Shown here one piece after another: positions 8,316 to 60,966 of a DNA stretch of 64,000 nucleotides. Numbering within the stretch: the first letter of the stretch is position 1; each line of letters opens with the position of its first letter. A program made the translations under genes and the position numbers. The notes under the pieces were generated by a model that was not told where the DNA came from, made no database searches, and saw only the letters and a list, made by a program, of their open reading frames with translations. Origin of the DNA: Candidatus Poribacteria bacterium (GTDB lineage: Bacteria; Poribacteria; WGA-4E; WGA-3G); contig OY282386.1 in NCBI GenBank assembly GCA_958295945.1, positions 496,001-560,000 of the forward strand, in the 5' to 3' direction.

Positions 8316-8735
8316 ATGAAACCATTTGAATACATAGAACATACAGCAGATGCGGGGATGCTTGTAAGAGGTGATTCACTACACTCTCTTTTTACTAATG
8401 CAGCTCAAGGATTATTTGAAATGATAGCTGTTGTTGATTCAATTGATGAAACTTCTGCAATAGATATTCAACTTGAATCAGAATCGGTTGAAATGCTTTT
8501 AGTGACATGGTTAGATGAATTGGTTTTTAAACATGAGACTGAAGAGATGTTCTTTAAGAGAGTTAAGATTTCAACAATCAATCCTACAGAATTAGTTGCT
8601 AAGGTGTATGGTGAACCAACAGATTTTAGCAAACATATCGTATATACTGAGGTTAAAGCCGTAACATATCATCAATTATATGCCGTTCAAAACACTGATG
8701 GTGATTGGGAAGCTCAAGTCATCTTTGATCTATAG
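8316..8735 (+). CDS. Archease family protein
   Basis: A complete 139-residue archease. In characterised systems archease is the cofactor that speeds guanylylation and multiple turnover of the RtcB RNA ligase in tRNA splicing or RNA repair. The N-terminal YIEHTADAGMLVRGDSL contains the family's conserved HTADxG motif with the metal-binding aspartate, and the C-terminal DWEAQVIFDL supplies the terminal acidic metal site ('A.VIFDI' in most archeases). Length is typical. No rtcB gene is visible in the window, so its partner must be elsewhere. It is transcribed divergently from the large secreted protein, with a 96-nt shared upstream region. Confidence 0.9.
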   Translation: MKPFEYIEHTADAGMLVRGDSLHSLFTNAAQGLFEMIAVVDSIDETSAIDIQLESESVEMLLVTWLDELVFKHETEEMFFKRVKISTINPTELVAKVYGEPTDFSKHIVYTEVKAVTYHQLYAVQNTDGDWEAQVIFDL

Positions 8736-8743
8736 TAACCCAA

Positions 8744-8790
8744 TTTGCTACCTTTGACTTGTTGAAGGGTTTATAACCTCGATTTTTGAC
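8744..8790. repeat. Copy of dispersed intergenic repeat
   Basis: TTGCTACCTTTGACTTGTTG followed by AAGGGTTTATAACCTCGATTTTT resembles the copy at 1602-1642 (TTGCTACCTATTAGTTGTAGGAGGGGTTTCTAA...). Other copies of the core 'GGAGGGGTTTCTAACCCCGATTT' lie near 19140, 19190, 19380, 22471 and 58953. The core is a short palindrome. Confidence 0.55.
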
Positions 8791-19044: not shown

Positions 19045-19835
19045 AAATGTGAAAGATGAATTCCATATCTCAGTCTTCTTATGTTGTTCATTTTATCAGA
19101 TAAATTATCAGTTGTCAACTAAAGTGTATGGATTCTCCTTTGTAGGAGGGGTTTCTAACCCCGATTTCTTAATGAATAGGAACAACTCTTGTTGGAGGGT
19201 TTTTAAACACCAATGAATGCTGTATATAAACTCGGATTCTACTGGAAAAATCCTGGTTCAAAAAAAAGAAACAACAAAATCCCAATACATTTCACACCCA
19301 AATACATGGGCACCACATCAAAAAACTCTACAATTGCAATCCAACACCAACTATAATAACCCAAGGGGACACCTATCAGTTGTAGGAGGGGGTTCTAACC
19401 CTGATTTTTTAATGCAAAAATGACATACGGCAAAAAAATGTAAGACACCACAAACCAGTCTAAAAACTGTCCAAAATATGAACAAATTAGAGAATAAAAT
19501 ACCCAATTTACTTGTTTTTTCAAAATTCTGTCAAAACAAAAACTTATCTGAACCTATACTATAACAATAACCAAAGCACTACGTTGAAAAAAACCAAAAA
19601 CAAGTAAACATTAAATTGTTGGATGTCCTCCCTTTATTGAAGCGATTTCTATACGAGACATAGACAACGTTTGTATTTGGTGTTGATTTGGATCAATCCG
19701 TAAACTCTGATATATTGAAACAGAATATTGACCATTGAACACCAGCGTGTTGTGCAATATTCTTTGACATACTATTCCATAATATGTTATCATCTTCACA
19801 ACTTCGCACGTAAAGTTCTATAGAAGGAATTACAG
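19045..19835. repeat. Intergenic region with three copies of the dispersed GGAGGGGTTTCTAACC repeat
   Basis: 791 bases with no convincing gene. Three copies of the dispersed palindromic repeat are present: 19140-19172 (TTGTAGGAGGGGTTTCTAAC then CCCGATTTC), 19188-19211 (TTGTTGGAGGGTTTTTAAAC, degenerate) and 19378-19408 (AGTTGTAGGAGGGGGTTCTA then ACCCTGATTT). The stretch 19420-19610 is very AT-rich without visible structure. Short frames here lack start signals and family resemblance. Confidence 0.6.
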
Positions 19836-46781: not shown

Positions 46782-48116
46782 GAGACTATTCCTTAAAGAA
46801 GTATTTAGGGACATTCTAAAAGAAATACGTCTGTTTGGCAAGTTTTATTGAAGAATATACCTATAATTTTAGTGTAGACACTCCACTAGTTTTCTTTCGA
46901 GACTATTAAGTTCAATACCAAATCCTCTATCTGTTCTCTCCAAGATATTTATAGTCTGACGGAAACTCATCTCATTAAGTGGATGTTTCTTACCAGCCTC
47001 TTTGTGTTTCCAACCATACAATGGTAGAAGCATCTGAGAAACTATTTTTGATCCGCGGGGTGATGGTTCAAAATGAAATAATGTCGTCAACGATGATGTC
47101 TTCATTCGCTGTGTTTTTAGTTCCCACTCAGCAGCATTTGGTATTGGAAGATTATTTTCCTCAATACCTAAAAGATCTTCTAATGTGTGACCAATTCCAC
47201 CAGAACTACCGGGCCTTACACTCTGAATCCAGCCCTGATCCCTTATTGATTTCAAATCTCCTATTAAACTCAACTTAGAAAATAGCAGCATTTTCCTCTC
47301 CTTAAATGATTGCTTTGTTTTTCTAATCAACAATAAAGTATTGAATTCTAGATAATGTTTTAAATATGTGGTGGACGCCAAAAATCAAGTAAGTATTCAA
47401 AAGTTACTCCCATTGTAATATAATTACTTGGCCATCCAAAAATACCAACCCTGTTTACTATATTCGTCCGATCCCAAATGATTGTGTTTCTCAATTCATA
47501 TCCACGTCTTCGGAATTCATCAATTATGGAAACATGTAATGTAATTCTTGTGTTGTCCAACCATATATCTGGTATGTTTATCACACAATGTGCTTTCGGT
47601 TTTAATTTGGGAAGTAATTTTTCGAATATATTCCCCATTGCTGTTGTGTAACAATTCATATCCAATATACCTAAATCTCTTGGGTCTTGTGAATACTGTT
47701 CGATTTTATCAAACTGATCATTCTTTCGGTCTCGTCTTGATTTATTTTTTCTAGATCGATTTAATAAGTTTGCATAGGGAGGCGAGGTAAAGATCAGCGA
47801 AAGAGATTCATCTGAGAAATACTTCTCAATATTCTGAGCATCATCTTGTATTGCAAGTTGATGTGTAGTGTTAAAGATATTTTGTGTTTTTAATCTATCC
47901 AGACAGACTTGTAAATATTCGGTCTTTAAGTCAAAACCAGCTGCATTTCTATTTGTATCGTTTGCTGCAATAAGAGTTGTACCACTTCCAACGAATGGGT
48001 CTAACACCAATTCTCCTTCATGTGTAAATAACTCAATCACTTTGCGGGCTAAGGATATTGGGAATGTTGCAGGATGAACTTTTTTATCTCGTATATCTCT
48101 ACCTTCATAATTAAAT

Positions 48117-55078: not shown

Positions 55079-55677
55079 TTAATCATCCTCTATTTCAAAT
55101 ACAATACCATTCTTTTTCTTTTCGTAATAGATGATCTTCACTTCTATAGTTTCAGATAAAAAAGGTTTTGTTTCATAAGTACTAGGTTTTATGGAATATG
55201 CATACTCACCTACGTAACCGTCAATACCTTGTGATTCTTCAAAAGGTTTTGCTAAACGGTAGTCACTACCTTTTATTTCAGATATTTTTCTAAGAATTGC
55301 CTCCTGAAATCTTAAACCTGTATATGTCTTGATAAGAACCAGATCTTCTACCTATGCTTTAACCATAGTTCTATCAACTTTGTCAATTGCATCTGTGAGT
55401 TTCTCTAACATTGCTCTAATTTATCTGTTGCCTCATCAATTGCATTAGGATATTTTTCTTGATACCATATTACCCATTCCTCAAATGTATGTCCTGGAAA
55501 TTCCTGAATGAGATCAGTCATTTGGCCAACAAACTTTGGTCGTGTTGCTTGTGAATTTTGGTTTGCAAGATTCATGATTTGGGTTGTGTATTTTGGAAAT
55601 TCGTAAGATGGGGATTTAATAACATATTCTTGTATCTCAGCATTGCTCAGTTTAATTTTCAATTTTAATTCTCCCAC
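55079..55677 (-). pseudogene. MjaI-like restriction endonuclease with frameshift and in-frame TAG
   Basis: Starting at GTG 55677 the frame reads GELKLKIKLSNAEIQEY ... FEEWVIWYQEKYPNAIDEATD and stops early; in the next frame the homologous protein continues MLEKLTDAIDKVDRTMVKA, hits TAG at 55352-55354, then VEDLVLIKTYTGLRFQEAIL, GSDYRLAKPFEESQGIDGYVG and EVKIIYYEKKKNGIVFEIEDD before TAA at 55079. One missing A near 55421 (DK-IRAMLEK) and a TGG-to-TAG change (MVKA-W-VEDL) explain both breaks. The reconstructed ~200-residue protein resembles MjaI-family endonucleases (CTAG-cutting in the archaeal type member). Its partner methyltransferase, 12 nt upstream, is intact. Confidence 0.72.
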
Positions 55678-55689
55678 AATTTAAAGCCA

Positions 55690-56829
55690 TTATACAGCGA
55701 ATATATCATGTCCGATTGGCATCTTGGAAGATTCCAATTTCTTATCTGTAATGGGTATAAATATTTGATCAATATCATACGTATCTGGTTCCAATGAATA
55801 TATGACTTCAACGGAATTGTCTTCAAGGACCTCAACATTTTTCAACGTATTCAGCAATATATCCTTTTCTTGACTTGTCATCACAGGGAAATTATAATAT
55901 TTATTCATATATTTCAACGGTTTTGAGTTTTGAATTCGGTTTTTTACAAATTCAAAATGGTTGTCAACTCTGTCATGTATATAATTATTTGAAAATTGAA
56001 GAATACCCCATATTACTGAATTAATTGTACTTTGAAATCTCTCATCAATTTCAATACCAATACTATTTCGTGCGGATGTCATTGCCGCAGCAGTTGTCGT
56101 TCCTGTACCTAAAAACGGATCAAGTATTACATCACCTTTAACAGCATACATGTTAATCAGTCTATAGGGTAATTCAAAAGGATATGCTCCACTTCTCAGT
56201 CTTGAGTTAACGTTGGCAAGTTTCTGACCAGTTCCCTTGACATCCATCCAGACATCTGAATACCAGATGTTCCTTTCTTCCCAAAACAACGCACTTCCCC
56301 GTCTATTTTCCTTTTCAATGTCTGTACTAAATACCCGTTTCTGACCCTTTCTTACTATGAGTATATATTCATGTTCCAATGTAACATACGCCCCAGCTGG
56401 CAGCATACCTGATCCCATAAATTTGTTTGGTGCATTAGTGTGTTTTCGCCATAGTATATCAGGAAGTACAGAAAATCCAATATCCAATAGGTGTGTTAAT
56501 ATGCGCGCATGGTTTGGATACAATTTGAAATTATTGTTTAGAGTTCTTGTAGCATCTCCAATGTTAATACAAGCAAACCTTCCAGTTTTTAATACTCTAA
56601 AAACTTCATTCCATACTGCATCAAGTATTTCGTGCATTAAGGAAAAAGCCAACATTCCATCACCGTATTCTAATGCGTTCCCTATCTCAGGATTCTGAGT
56701 ACAGTACATTTCATCCCACATATCTATCATAGGATAGGGTGGTGAAGTCACTACCAGATCGACACTGTTTGATGGAATTTGCTTCAAATCTTGAGAATCT
56801 TGATAAATGATCTTATGTGATGTTTTCAT
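55690..56829 (-). CDS. DNA methyltransferase (N4-C/N6-A), beta-class, now orphan
   Basis: 379 residues. Motif IV (LVVTSPPYPMIDMWDEMY) comes before motif I (VILDPFLGTGTTTAAA), the beta-class order, with GRFACINIGDATR and LEHEYILIVRKG as intermediate strands. It would methylate an amino group of cytosine or adenine in a defined site using S-adenosylmethionine. The broken endonuclease remnant immediately downstream (12 nt gap) shows it came from a type II restriction-modification operon; MjaI-like enzymes recognise CTAG, so that site is a guess for the specificity. The intact frame suggests selection for methylation after restriction was lost. Confidence 0.85.
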   Translation of the reverse strand: MKTSHKIIYQDSQDLKQIPSNSVDLVVTSPPYPMIDMWDEMYCTQNPEIGNALEYGDGMLAFSLMHEILDAVWNEVFRVLKTGRFACINIGDATRTLNNNFKLYPNHARILTHLLDIGFSVLPDILWRKHTNAPNKFMGSGMLPAGAYVTLEHEYILIVRKGQKRVFSTDIEKENRRGSALFWEERNIWYSDVWMDVKGTGQKLANVNSRLRSGAYPFELPYRLINMYAVKGDVILDPFLGTGTTTAAAMTSARNSIGIEIDERFQSTINSVIWGILQFSNNYIHDRVDNHFEFVKNRIQNSKPLKYMNKYYNFPVMTSQEKDILLNTLKNVEVLEDNSVEVIYSLEPDTYDIDQIFIPITDKKLESSKMPIGHDIFAV

Positions 56830-57490: not shown

Positions 57491-58330
57491 TTAAGACAAG
57501 TTTTTTTGTTCAAATTCAATAGGAGTTAAATAACCTAATGCCGAATGAGGTCGTTTCTGGTTGGACACTTGTTCAATAAAATGTCCAATGCAAGCATTAG
57601 CATCTGCAATATCATCATAGTCATTCAAGTAGATTTCTGCCTCTTTGAGAGTTCGGATAAACCGTTCCACATAACCGTTCTCCCAAGGTCGGCCTCTATG
57701 AGCTAACGAAATCCCAATCCCATGATCAGTGAGAGTAGAAATATAGGCTTCTGATAAATACTGAACTCCCTGATCACTATGATGGATCTCTGGAACGTTT
57801 TCTCGTCCTGCTTGCTGTAAGGGTCTCAATGTTAGAGGTTGTGTCAAATGCCGACTCAGTTGCCACCCTCTTATTATTCGAGTAAACACATCAAGGAGAA
57901 CTGAAACATAGACAAAGTTTCCTTTGAACCGAACATAGGTGACATCCGCAACCCAGACCTGATTGTGCCGACAAATGTCAAGGTTATCAAGTCTATTGAC
58001 CCATTGACATTTACCATCAACGGATTTCGTGGTTTGACAAGAGCGTTTGAAAGAAACCAACAGATTAGCTGATTTCATCAATCGTGCGACGCGTCGGTAT
58101 CCAACGGTGTATCCCATACGTAACAGTTCCTCTGTGATACGTCTATAACCATATCTTGGATAACGGGTAGATAACATTTCTATCTCCTGTTGGAGTTGTG
58201 CTTCGCAAGGATCCTTTTTGGGTTCATAATAGAGACTACTTCTATTGAAACCGAGTGTCCCGCAAATCTGTCGCATTGAGTAATCGGTTCGCAAAGTTTG
58301 GACAATCCTTCGTTTTTCAGCAAGGGTCAA
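57491..58330 (-). CDS. IS3 transposase OrfB (DDE integrase domain)
   Basis: 279 residues; its ATG overlaps the OrfA stop (ATGA). HTH_21 segment (RYPRYGYRRITEELLRMGYTVGYRRVARLMKSANL), then the rve catalytic core: VWVADVTYVRFKGNFVYVSVLLDVFTR (first Asp), EIHHSDQGVQYLSEAYISTLTDHGI (second Asp) and ENGYVERFIRTLKEAEIY (glutamate), ending RPHSALGYLTPIEFEQ. All catalytic residues are present, so the IS could be active. Confidence 0.9.
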   Translation of the reverse strand: MTLAEKRRIVQTLRTDYSMRQICGTLGFNRSSLYYEPKKDPCEAQLQQEIEMLSTRYPRYGYRRITEELLRMGYTVGYRRVARLMKSANLLVSFKRSCQTTKSVDGKCQWVNRLDNLDICRHNQVWVADVTYVRFKGNFVYVSVLLDVFTRIIRGWQLSRHLTQPLTLRPLQQAGRENVPEIHHSDQGVQYLSEAYISTLTDHGIGISLAHRGRPWENGYVERFIRTLKEAEIYLNDYDDIADANACIGHFIEQVSNQKRPHSALGYLTPIEFEQKNLS

Positions 58331-58617
58331 CTCAGCAAGGTTGAGACTTTTTTTTGGATATCCAATTCCAAGGTCAATCTACCAACAAGTTGTTCAAGTT
58401 GAGTGATCCGTTGTTGAGACGCTTGGGTCTGTTTATCATTAGTTTCAAAGAGGGTGGTTTCCGCATTTTCAAGAAGTTGGCGTTTCCACTTTGAGAGTTG
58501 AACATCGCTGATGTTATGTTTTCGACATAGTTCCGCTTGTGAACTTTCACCACACAGTGCCTCAAGGACAACTTCAGCTTTAAATTCTGGGGTGAATCTT
58601 CTTCGTTTGGTCTCCAC
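58327..58617 (-). CDS. IS3 transposase OrfA
   Basis: 96 residues: KRRRFTPEFKAEVVLEALCG and QAELCRKHNISDVQLSKWKRQLLENA form the helix-turn-helix, followed by a leucine-zipper helix (RITQLEQLVGRLTLELDIQKK). The frame contains an A8 run (T8 at 58348-58355 on the plus strand): a -1 slip there reads QKKSLNLAELTLAEKRRIV straight into OrfB, giving the OrfAB transposase; without it OrfA ends after KKVSTLLS. This programmed frameshift is the standard IS3 strategy. Confidence 0.88.
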   Translation of the reverse strand: METKRRRFTPEFKAEVVLEALCGESSQAELCRKHNISDVQLSKWKRQLLENAETTLFETNDKQTQASQQRITQLEQLVGRLTLELDIQKKVSTLLS

Positions 58618-58692: not shown

Positions 58693-58776
58693 GTACAGTC
58701 GTTTTCCTTTATTGTTGCGTGGGGCTGGAACTTCTGCTAACATATCAAGTAAGTGGCAAGACGATTTTCTTGTCAT
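58693..58776 (-). pseudogene. N-terminal stump of an ISAs1-family transposase
   Basis: Starting at ATG 58776 behind a GAGGTG ribosome site: CHLLDMLAEVPAPRNNKGKR, the conserved ISAs1 transposase start ('LLD.LAEIPDPR...G.RH'). It ends after 28 residues at the IS3 element; the rest of the transposase is absent from the window. Confidence 0.6.
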
Positions 58777-58922
58777 GATTCACCTCAAAAGTTAGTATGT
58801 TTTAAGGTGAAGTCCAGCAGATATAGTGGGAGAAATCACACTATATCTGTTCCTTAGAATAATGAACCTTTGTGAAAAATAACACAAGAAAAACGTAAAA
58901 CTAAATAACCCTATATCAAATC

Positions 58923-59083
58923 CAGAGGCATTCAATTGTCGATATTCTCTATCGTTGGAGGGTTTCCAACCCCGATTTAACAACAAAATCAGTCGTCCTC
59001 GCGCAATTCATGCACTTATTTTATCCTTTGGAAATGTTTTATTTCACTTTAGGATAAGAAAACTCGACAATTGAATGCCTCTG
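58923..59083. repeat. 161-bp MITE with perfect 20-bp inverted repeats and 10-bp target duplication
   Basis: CAGAGGCATTCAATTGTCGA at 58923-58942 and its exact reverse complement at 59064-59083. ATATCAAATC occurs directly outside at both ends (58913-58922 and 59084-59093), a perfect 10-bp target duplication. Inside is a copy of the dispersed palindrome (GTTGGAGGGTTTCCAACCCC, 58954-58973). No coding capacity, so it must be mobilised in trans. The -35 element of the methyltransferase promoter begins two bases after the right duplication. Confidence 0.88.
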
Positions 59084-59094
59084 ATATCAAATCA

Positions 59095-59123
59095 TTGCAA
59101 CAGGACATCAAGTGTGATATAAT
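59095..59123 (+). promoter_or_regulatory. Sigma-70-like promoter for the methyltransferase
   Basis: TTGCAA (59095-59100), 17 nt, TATAAT (59118-59123); the ATG follows ~33 nt later. The -35 abuts the MITE target duplication. Confidence 0.5.
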
Positions 59124-59155: not shown

Positions 59156-60451
59156 ATGATGGTTAACGTCACTGACATTATCAATGAATTTGGTGAATGT
59201 TTAGTTAGGGTTGATGGAGAAATACCTGTTGACCTTCCTGCCAAAGAGGGAGACAGGTTTCTTTTTATTAGCAACGATCAAAGTTATCTAACACACGGTT
59301 TACACAAATATCCAGCCAAATTTTTCCCAGAACTACCTCGTTGGTTGATTAAACGCTATTCACAAGAACACGACCAAATCCTGGATCCGTTTACCGGTAG
59401 TGGTACTACAAATGTTGAGGCATTACTCTCTAACCGTAACTCTGTAGGGATTGATGTGGATCCATTTTCACGTTTTCTTTCAAAAGTGAAGGTCACCCCT
59501 TTAGATGAAAAGGAACTCAAGGCAGCACAGAAATGTCTATTGGAGTCAATCATCATTTACGATCCCTCACAGGTATCCTATTCTGAAATACCCAACTTTC
59601 CATATAGAGACAATTGGTTTAATAAAGAGATACTCGTTGAGTTGACCTATCTGCGGAAACAGATTCAACTGTTAAATACTTGCGAAGAGATTAAAGAGTT
59701 TTTCAAAGTGTGTTTATCATCCATAATCCGTTCTGTTTCAAATGCTGATGACAATTGTACTCGGACTGTTATAAGAAAGAAATTGAATAAATTGGTAAAA
59801 CCGTCCGATGCTCTCAATAGGTTTGCAAAAACAGTTCTTGCTAAAGTTCCAAAAATGACAGAATTTTCACAAAACTATCCACATGATATTTCAGTTGATT
59901 TTCCAGAAGATATGGATGCAAGGAATATAAAATATGATCAAGAACACTTTGACCTTGCGGTAACCTCCCCACCTTATGTCAATGCAGTTGACTATCCAAG
60001 AACACATCAGTTAGAGATGTATTGGCTTGGATTTGCCCAGGATTCATTAACTGACCTAAAGAAGCAAAACGTTGGCACAGAGAGTGTTTCGTCTCAATAC
60101 TATAATAAAAGACATGAAATTGGTGTTCCAGATGCTGACAAAGTTTTAGCAAGTATCTTTGAAGTTGACCCAAGACGTGCATACATTGCATACAAATACC
60201 TTGACGATATGAGACAAAACCTTTCTGAAGTTTACAATGTCTTGCGAAAAGATGGGAGATACATTGTAGTTGTAGGGAATAATCGTATACGCGGACATCT
60301 TTTTGAGAATTGGAAGTATCTCATGCCAATAGCAGAAGAGACAGGTTTTGAAGTAGAAACTTATTTCGGTTCGGAGATTATCAAACATTTCATTAAGGTG
60401 CCGAGAGAAGAGCGGATCAATACAGACTGGATATTAGTTTTGAAGAAATAA
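59156..60451 (+). CDS. DNA methyltransferase (N4-C/N6-A), third restriction-modification locus
   Basis: 431 residues. SYLTHGLHKYPAKFFPELPRWL then motif I ILDPFTGSGTTNVEALLSNRNSVGIDVDPF, and late motif IV DLAVTSPPYVNAVDYPRTHQLEMYWLGF; the catalytic TSPPY follows motif I after a long inserted recognition region (~residues 120-260). C-terminal strands DGRYIVVVGNNRIRGHLFENW are typical. It modifies an exocyclic amino group in a specific sequence, unknown here. The endonuclease 17 nt downstream carries a stop codon, so this methyltransferase probably acts alone. Two ATG codons are adjacent at the start. Confidence 0.85.
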   Translation: MMVNVTDIINEFGECLVRVDGEIPVDLPAKEGDRFLFISNDQSYLTHGLHKYPAKFFPELPRWLIKRYSQEHDQILDPFTGSGTTNVEALLSNRNSVGIDVDPFSRFLSKVKVTPLDEKELKAAQKCLLESIIIYDPSQVSYSEIPNFPYRDNWFNKEILVELTYLRKQIQLLNTCEEIKEFFKVCLSSIIRSVSNADDNCTRTVIRKKLNKLVKPSDALNRFAKTVLAKVPKMTEFSQNYPHDISVDFPEDMDARNIKYDQEHFDLAVTSPPYVNAVDYPRTHQLEMYWLGFAQDSLTDLKKQNVGTESVSSQYYNKRHEIGVPDADKVLASIFEVDPRRAYIAYKYLDDMRQNLSEVYNVLRKDGRYIVVVGNNRIRGHLFENWKYLMPIAEETGFEVETYFGSEIIKHFIKVPREERINTDWILVLKK

Positions 60452-60468: not shown

Positions 60469-60966
60469 ATGGTAAACACACAGGATAGAGGAAGACAAGC
60501 ATCTGTAGATGGTTTTGCTCATGAGCACATTGTTGTAGGAATTCTAATGAAGAAATATCAGAACGTGTGATTAGTTGATTTACCATTGTCACCTTACGAT
60601 ATCATTATCGTCCGAAAGGATGTAGATGATAATGAAGACATAATTAGAGCACAAGTCAAAACAGCAAAAAAAGCAGTTAATTTTACAGGAGGATCGAGAG
60701 GGGGTGTTGACAGAGAATCTAAATCGGACGTAAAAAAATATATACAATCCACTGCAACCTCAGATGTTGTTATTGGTATACATCCCATTGATGATAGAAC
60801 CTATGAACTTTACTTCGTTCCTACGATTCTCGTAGAACACCTAAATCAAAAGAGTATTTCTATTAACAGAATTTCGGATTTGAAAGAGAATTACTTTATA
60901 TTGGAAAACTGCAAAGATGAAAAATTAATTATTCAAAAGTGTTCAGAATATAGTATTCTTACATAG
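60469..60966 (+). pseudogene. Restriction-endonuclease-like gene interrupted by in-frame TGA
   Basis: The frame starts at ATG 60469 behind GAGGAA, 17 nt after the methyltransferase stop: VNTQDRGRQASVDGFAHEHI then VVGILMKKYQNV, TGA at 60568-60570, LVDLPLSPYDIIIVRKDVDDN and EDIIRAQVKTAKKAVNF, continuing to TAG at 60964-60966. The pattern PYD ... RAQVKTAKK is a PD-(D/E)xK nuclease core (D, Q-x-K variant), fitting the partner endonuclease. A TGG or TCA codon changed to TGA would explain the stop. Translation from the TGA onward lacks a ribosome site. I did not find a convincing selenocysteine signal. Confidence 0.72.

Follow-up and report, generated by a model that had tools for sequence, protein, structure and literature searches.

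Immediately upstream of a DNA methyltransferase gene in a Candidatus Poribacteria genome lies a short sequence with inverted ends. It raises the question of what kind of element this is, which transposase could have moved it, and how it came to carry a palindrome that is also dispersed elsewhere in the genome. The window (the whole stretch of DNA that was analysed, 64,000 nt) corresponds to C1:496001–560000 of a 5.34-Mb, single-contig genome; positions given without the prefix C1 are those of the window.

A MITE and its parent insertion sequence

The element (nt 58923–59083, plus strand) is 161 bp long and non-coding, being free of overlap with any ORF of at least 80 aa. Its terminal inverted repeats (TIRs), CAGAGGCATTCAATTGTCGA, are perfect over 20 bp (58923–58942 on the plus strand and 59064–59083 on the minus strand) and agree at 84% over 31 nt; such a match was seen in none of 100 shuffles, so that chance is excluded for these ends. 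Directly outside them is a 10-bp target site duplication (TSD), ATATCAAATC, with its left copy at nt 58913–58922 and its right copy at nt 59084–59093. The earlier note, made from the sequence of the window, had described a MITE of this size with these ends and this duplication, and the description holds. The whole element has a far more stable fold than shuffled sequences (z = −8.2), mainly owing to the TIRs, and an intrinsic terminator or terminator-like site was looked for within it and not found.

A genome search for the ends, as the earlier note had proposed, returned a parent IS with its transposase as well as two further copies of the MITE, C1:2991739–2991900 (96%) and C1:4654452–4654613 (92%). 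The absence of both other copies and an IS with matching ends had been named in advance as the outcome that would speak against a MITE, and this outcome did not occur. No TSD was seen at the two sister copies, and a clean insertion is shown by one copy only in this genome. The parent IS occurs at C1:138513, 375872 and 2268809, in copies of 1329–1346 bp whose terminal 20–24 nt are identical to those of the MITE. It encodes a single transposase of 397 aa; the proteins of the copies are about 99% identical, and two copies have open frames of 421–425 codons. Every named record with a gene for a related transposase is from Candidatus Poribacteria. Duplications of 10 bp flank the copy at C1:375872 (ACTAGATCCA) and a shortened form of the IS at C1:2402124 (TGTGCGAAAT), and a comparison of TSD lengths gave 10 bp for the MITE, the IS copies and relatives alike.

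The length of the duplication had led the earlier note to an IS4-superfamily origin. IS4 elements have duplications in a range that includes 10 bp, and the parent transposase does match the Pfam family DDE_Tnp_1. However, it scores 207.7 bits against the ISAs1 equivalog model NF033564 (cut-off 70) and 23.7 bits against the IS4 model, under the cut-off of 115, and its N-terminal part contains a DDE_Tnp_1_assoc domain. On the evidence of family models, the proposal that the element is an IS4-family MITE is refuted, and we consider it extremely improbable. The single DDE transposase with DDE_Tnp_1_assoc, the ends beginning with CAG and the 10-bp TSD are those of the ISAs1 family (relatives of the H-repeat); unlike members of that family, the MITE has no gene and has only about 24 bp per end in common with the IS. 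Ends that match those of an IS, an ISAs1 transposase within that IS, duplications of equal length, a lack of coding capacity and three copies in the genome together place the element among ISAs1 MITEs.

Deletion derivatives of the parent IS exist at C1:397028 (631 bp) and C1:2402124 (715 bp), and at C1:3728510 these ends enclose an element of 283 bp, the flanks of which, ACAATGACGA and ACAAAGACGA, are alike except for a single base. The MITE was also considered as a derivative of this kind, which was rejected, as nothing visible is shared with the interior of the IS past about 24 bp at each end.

The explanation that we favour, with a probability of about 0.9, is that the element is a non-autonomous ISAs1-type MITE with a REP as cargo, mobilised by the transposase of the parent IS. 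The ISAs1-family transposase of the 1329-bp IS would recognise the shared ends and move the MITE in trans, and each insertion would produce a 10-bp target duplication. The interior is not what remains of a deleted IS but DNA of other origin, which has a GTNG-type REP hairpin 31 bp in from the left end. That REP, deriving from the RAYT/REP system of the phylum, would ride as cargo inside ISAs1-type ends.

Two further observations concern the parent IS. In the oppositely oriented copies C1:138513–139841 and C1:2268809–2270154, the 10-bp TSDs ACTAAAGTAC and CCGTTTGTGC have changed partners, so that each copy has one of either sequence. This indicates that the intervening 2.13 Mb was inverted by recombination between the two copies, or that the assembly is misjoined; GC skew gave too weak a signal to serve as a check on the inversion. 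Inward of the left end and ahead of the start of the transposase, at about bases 47–78 of the IS (C1:138559–138590 in this genome, G000), there is a perfect 14-bp hairpin, AAGATATAGCATGA/TCATGCTATATCTT, possibly a guard against read-through expression; an IS of a second ISAs1 subtype carries a similar hairpin.

The inner palindrome and its dispersed copies

The palindrome within the element was found where the earlier note had placed it: GTTGGAGGGTTTCCAACCCC, nt 58954–58973, starting at base 32 of the element. It lies within a REP-like hairpin, GTTGGAGGGTTTCCAACCCCGATTT (nt 58954–58978, plus strand), which has a GTNG head, a hairpin and a CGATT tail. Between the conserved 18-nt TIR core and this hairpin is a variable spacer of 13 nt (nt 58941–58953, plus strand), the first two bases of which still match the 20-bp TIR in this copy.

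REPs and REPINs linked to RAYT genes have a GT(A/G/T)GGAG head, a hairpin and a CGA tail (PMC2817692, PMC3116915). Hairpins of the same plan, with a short loop between the stems, flank RAYT genes in relatives of the present organism (loci L159, L160, L162, L165 and L173), and the plan of the Pseudomonas fluorescens SBW25 REP, GTGGGAGGGGGCTTGCCCCCGAT (PMC2817692), matches that of GTGGGAGGGGTTTCCAACCCCGAC, which adjoins a Poribacteria RAYT in genome G018. Two of these loci, L159 and L160, contain long regular arrays of REPs, mostly 62–79 bp apart, beside the RAYT genes. The stems are supported by covariation, with a score of 0.53 versus 0.17 for shuffled alignments (0/500). Across 60 distinct sequences, 90.8% of stem positions are paired, a percentage that is inflated by the removal by hand of most unpaired chance rows from the alignment (A1), but the contrast with controls in which the partners were slid by one column is large (48%); the same alignment has 61 double-change cells against 13.5 when shuffled. 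Judged by its sequence, with the GTNG head, hairpin, CGA tail and stem covariation and with REPs of the same type beside the RAYTs of relatives, the inner palindrome is a GTNG-type REP, foreign to the IS and of the kind found around RAYT genes in the phylum.

Compared with most others, the REP of the window MITE has a short stem, and it folds best as an alternative GTTGGA/TCCAAC hairpin. Those of the sister copies read GTGGGAGGAGTTTCCAACCCC and GTGAGAGGAGTTTTCAACCCC, and the REPs of all three copies look decayed. A REPIN has two inverted REPs; the window MITE has a single one, and pairs are found in related elements (L102, L103 and L114; type B, below). The same genome has a RAYT-like gene at C1:2314248, which scores 67.8 bits, below the cut-off of 80, and within about 2 kb of which (L161) no REPs were detected. 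A Y1 transposase at C1:1609796 was considered as the RAYT and rejected, as it looks like an IS200-type TnpA.

The earlier note had also seen in the palindrome a hint that many of its intergenic copies are relics of related MITEs. Within the 64-kb window, the only copy at up to 3 mismatches is the one inside the MITE, with weaker relatives at nt 1617, 19140 and 19380. A census of evenly spaced stretches amounting to 1.54 Mb of this genome gave 74 strict REPs, none of which had an ISAs1 end at the right distance, and 16 of the 74 were bounded by inverted repeats of other kinds, 15 bp or longer, compared with 8 of 600 random places. The proposal fared better in G007, a relative with 350 occurrences of the REP at up to 2 mismatches. 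Here an ISAs1-type end stands at the fixed distance in 17 of the 30 REPs looked at (the first by contig order and not a random sample, with paired REPs of one element counted separately), and others have further inverted ends. A relic at C1:2910786 in the present genome that retains part of an ISAs1-type end also fits the proposal. Against it stand the sampled REPs of this genome, and REPs that flank RAYTs and bear other TIRs or none, and we think it improbable that most of the dispersed palindromes derive from decayed ISAs1 MITEs; the hint holds in part. REPs form a family in their own right, and miniature transposons of more than one kind often carry them.

Several of the sampled REPs belong to a second MITE family with other ends, the elements of which (14 paired in the sampled loci) are mostly 143–155 bp in length, with TIRs close to AACCTAAGTTGCCACCTA and a 5-bp TSD. 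Many of its copies have a GTTG-type REP, which is always at offset 24 where the motif is intact, and one longer, GTAG-type copy has the REP at 34. Three stretches of the window (nt 1588–1638, 8730–8780 and 19351–19401) are repeat-related to this family.

Fixed spacing of REPs and ends in the genus

Of 194 genomes searched, 11, including this one, have a match. A gapped pattern for paired TIR cores detected 49 elements in 6 of the 18 genomes of the genus, 34 of them in G007. Two designs were recognised: type A, of about 160–200 bp with one REP as in the window, and the REPIN-like type B, of about 130 bp and arranged as TIR, 13 nt, REP, spacer, inverted REP, 13 nt, TIR. The fetched loci provided 39 candidate miniature elements, two of which are false pairs from L113. 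A TSD of 9–10 bp flanks 20 of the 39, while any duplication was seen in just 2 of 780 control placements, and a strict REP filter recognised a pair of REPs in 10 candidates and a single REP in 18; the 11 in which it recognised none include some with decayed REPs. In G007, the genome richest in these elements, only a fragment of an ISAs1 transposase was found (60 bits, internal stops), and the helper transposase there is either lost or was missed in the assembly. A whole family of elements of about 120–200 bp, in which the REP is either single or paired in inverted orientation, would have spread through the genus in the way proposed for the window copy.

The geometry of these elements is constant. 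Of 48 ends that were scored, 46 have the first base of the REP at offset 31 (base 32) and the other two have it at offset 30, and the spacer measures 13 nt in 37 of 38 units. Sequence identity is 92% in the TIR, 44% in the spacer, 78% in the REP and 31% in the DNA beyond, and the spacers fall into five types that are mutually no more than 50% identical.

The fixed distance could mean that the REP does work at the end of the element and has been kept by selection in the miniature elements. It might, for example, be a hairpin or a site for a host factor, placed some three helical turns inward of the tip, or it might protect the element against read-through. The maintenance of offset and spacer length while the spacer sequences diverge is in keeping with this, as is the single fixed offset of the second MITE family. 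The REP is absent from the full-length parent IS, however, and is therefore not needed for transposition of the autonomous element. Old copies (L101, L109 and L121) retain their TIRs while the REP decays, the window copy has no terminator-like site, and a constant length is also explained by shared descent, with few indels expected in 13 nt. A function of this kind is a tentative suggestion. The alternative is that REPs move independently, as in RAYT/REPIN systems, and entered ISAs1-type miniature elements, the constant spacing reflecting the shared ancestry of a few founders. REPs are abundant outside such elements, as seen in the 74 of the census, in an inverted pair without a TIR near C1:366023–366090 and in the arrays beside the RAYTs of relatives. 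If capture happened often, only coincidence would make the distance come out exactly the same each time, at either end of the element and across more than one family of TIRs. We judge the case for independent REPs to be evenly balanced, and lean towards cargo from few founders over a working part.

Small mobile DNAs of the MITE and REP kinds are as a rule dealt with apart from one another, the transposases being of the DDE type for the former and tyrosine HUH enzymes for the latter. In its size, TIRs and lack of coding capacity, the window MITE resembles those of the NEMIS/Correia, RUP, Nezha and ERIC groups, which are 70–300 bp long with TIRs of 15–30 bp and no coding capacity (PMC3733652), but here the ends are of ISAs1 type and a REP or inverted REP pair follows at a fixed distance behind the TIR. 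Type B elements share their two inverted REPs with REPINs, from which they and the window copy, with its single REP, differ in being framed by DDE-type TIRs and 10-bp TSDs. There is also a parallel with the TIRtrons and the REP-plus-stem-loop composites of Pseudomonas (PMC3733652), in which REP units are likewise joined to unrelated inverted repeats; their TIRs flank RAYT genes, whereas those described here are the TIRs of an ISAs1 IS. Poribacteria are not mentioned in that survey of GTAG repeats, and no title or passage on ISAs1 MITEs or on REPs nested in bacterial MITEs was found in a search of open-licence papers.

The element itself is an ordinary, new member of the ISAs1 MITEs. The unusual point is that REP hairpins are so regularly joined to ends of the DDE type. 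It is conceivable, though rather less than probable, that the REP/REPIN is a standard module of the miniature transposons of the phylum, combined at a fixed distance from the tip with unrelated IS ends (ISAs1, the family with 5-bp TSDs and at least one more) and able to be spread by IS transposases and perhaps RAYTs. Elements with this dual signature, many copies and fixed geometry offer a handle on how REPs spread without a matching RAYT, and on whether the end of a transposon benefits from having a REP.

The methyltransferase locus

The MITE landed just upstream of the methyltransferase promoter and beside an older remnant of an ISAs1-type IS. This remnant (nt 58698–58912, minus strand) is the truncated 5' end of the second ISAs1 subtype, with the end CAGGGTTATTTAGTTTTA and the transposase start MTRKSSCHLLDMLAEVPAPRNNKGKR, and it abuts the target site of the MITE; it adjoins in turn the ORFs of an IS3-family transposase (96 and 279 aa; nt 57491–58617, minus strand). 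The sequence TAAAACTRAATAACCCT upstream of the MITE was considered as a conserved flank of the promoter and rejected, as it is the end of the second ISAs1 subtype.

The promoter is of the sigma-70 type (TTGCAA-17-TATAAT, nt 59095–59123, plus strand) and precedes the methyltransferase gene (nt 59156–60451, plus strand; N6_N4_Mtase, PADLOC MTase_II), the product of which resembles type II enzymes. An intergenic insertion beside this promoter, as described in the earlier note, is supported, but the distance to the −35 box given there as two bases is one base from the right TSD copy, the end of the MITE itself being 11 bp upstream of the box at nt 59095. Counterparts of the promoter are present in L127, L128, L130 and L136, none of which has this MITE at that place; the promoter is ancestral and intact and was not created by the insertion. 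The effect of the MITE on the gene is probably small, and the locus as a whole seems little changed by it. In two other species, elements with subtype-2 ends lie 17 bp upstream of the orthologous promoter (L127:1147–1414, 268 bp, with an 8-bp duplication, GATGCTTT; L128:903–1415, 513 bp), and the region upstream of the promoter is thus a repeated landing site.

The methyltransferase had been called an orphan, which is doubtful, since several relatives have a partner gene downstream of it. The ORF behind the methyltransferase (nt 60586–60966, plus strand) is 73–79% identical to ORFs that seven relatives have after the methyltransferase orthologue. It has a PD-(D/E)xK-like motif (YD...QVK) that in six relatives is part of a longer open frame; here the gene is shortened, an in-frame stop cutting off the N-terminal part. 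The term orphan is true at most of the present state of this strain. Two further methyltransferase genes are found in the window (nt 46869–48040 and 55405–56829), and each adjoins an ORF that matches restriction endonucleases, of the MvaI/BcnI type (170 aa) and the MjaI type (a 90-aa fragment), respectively.
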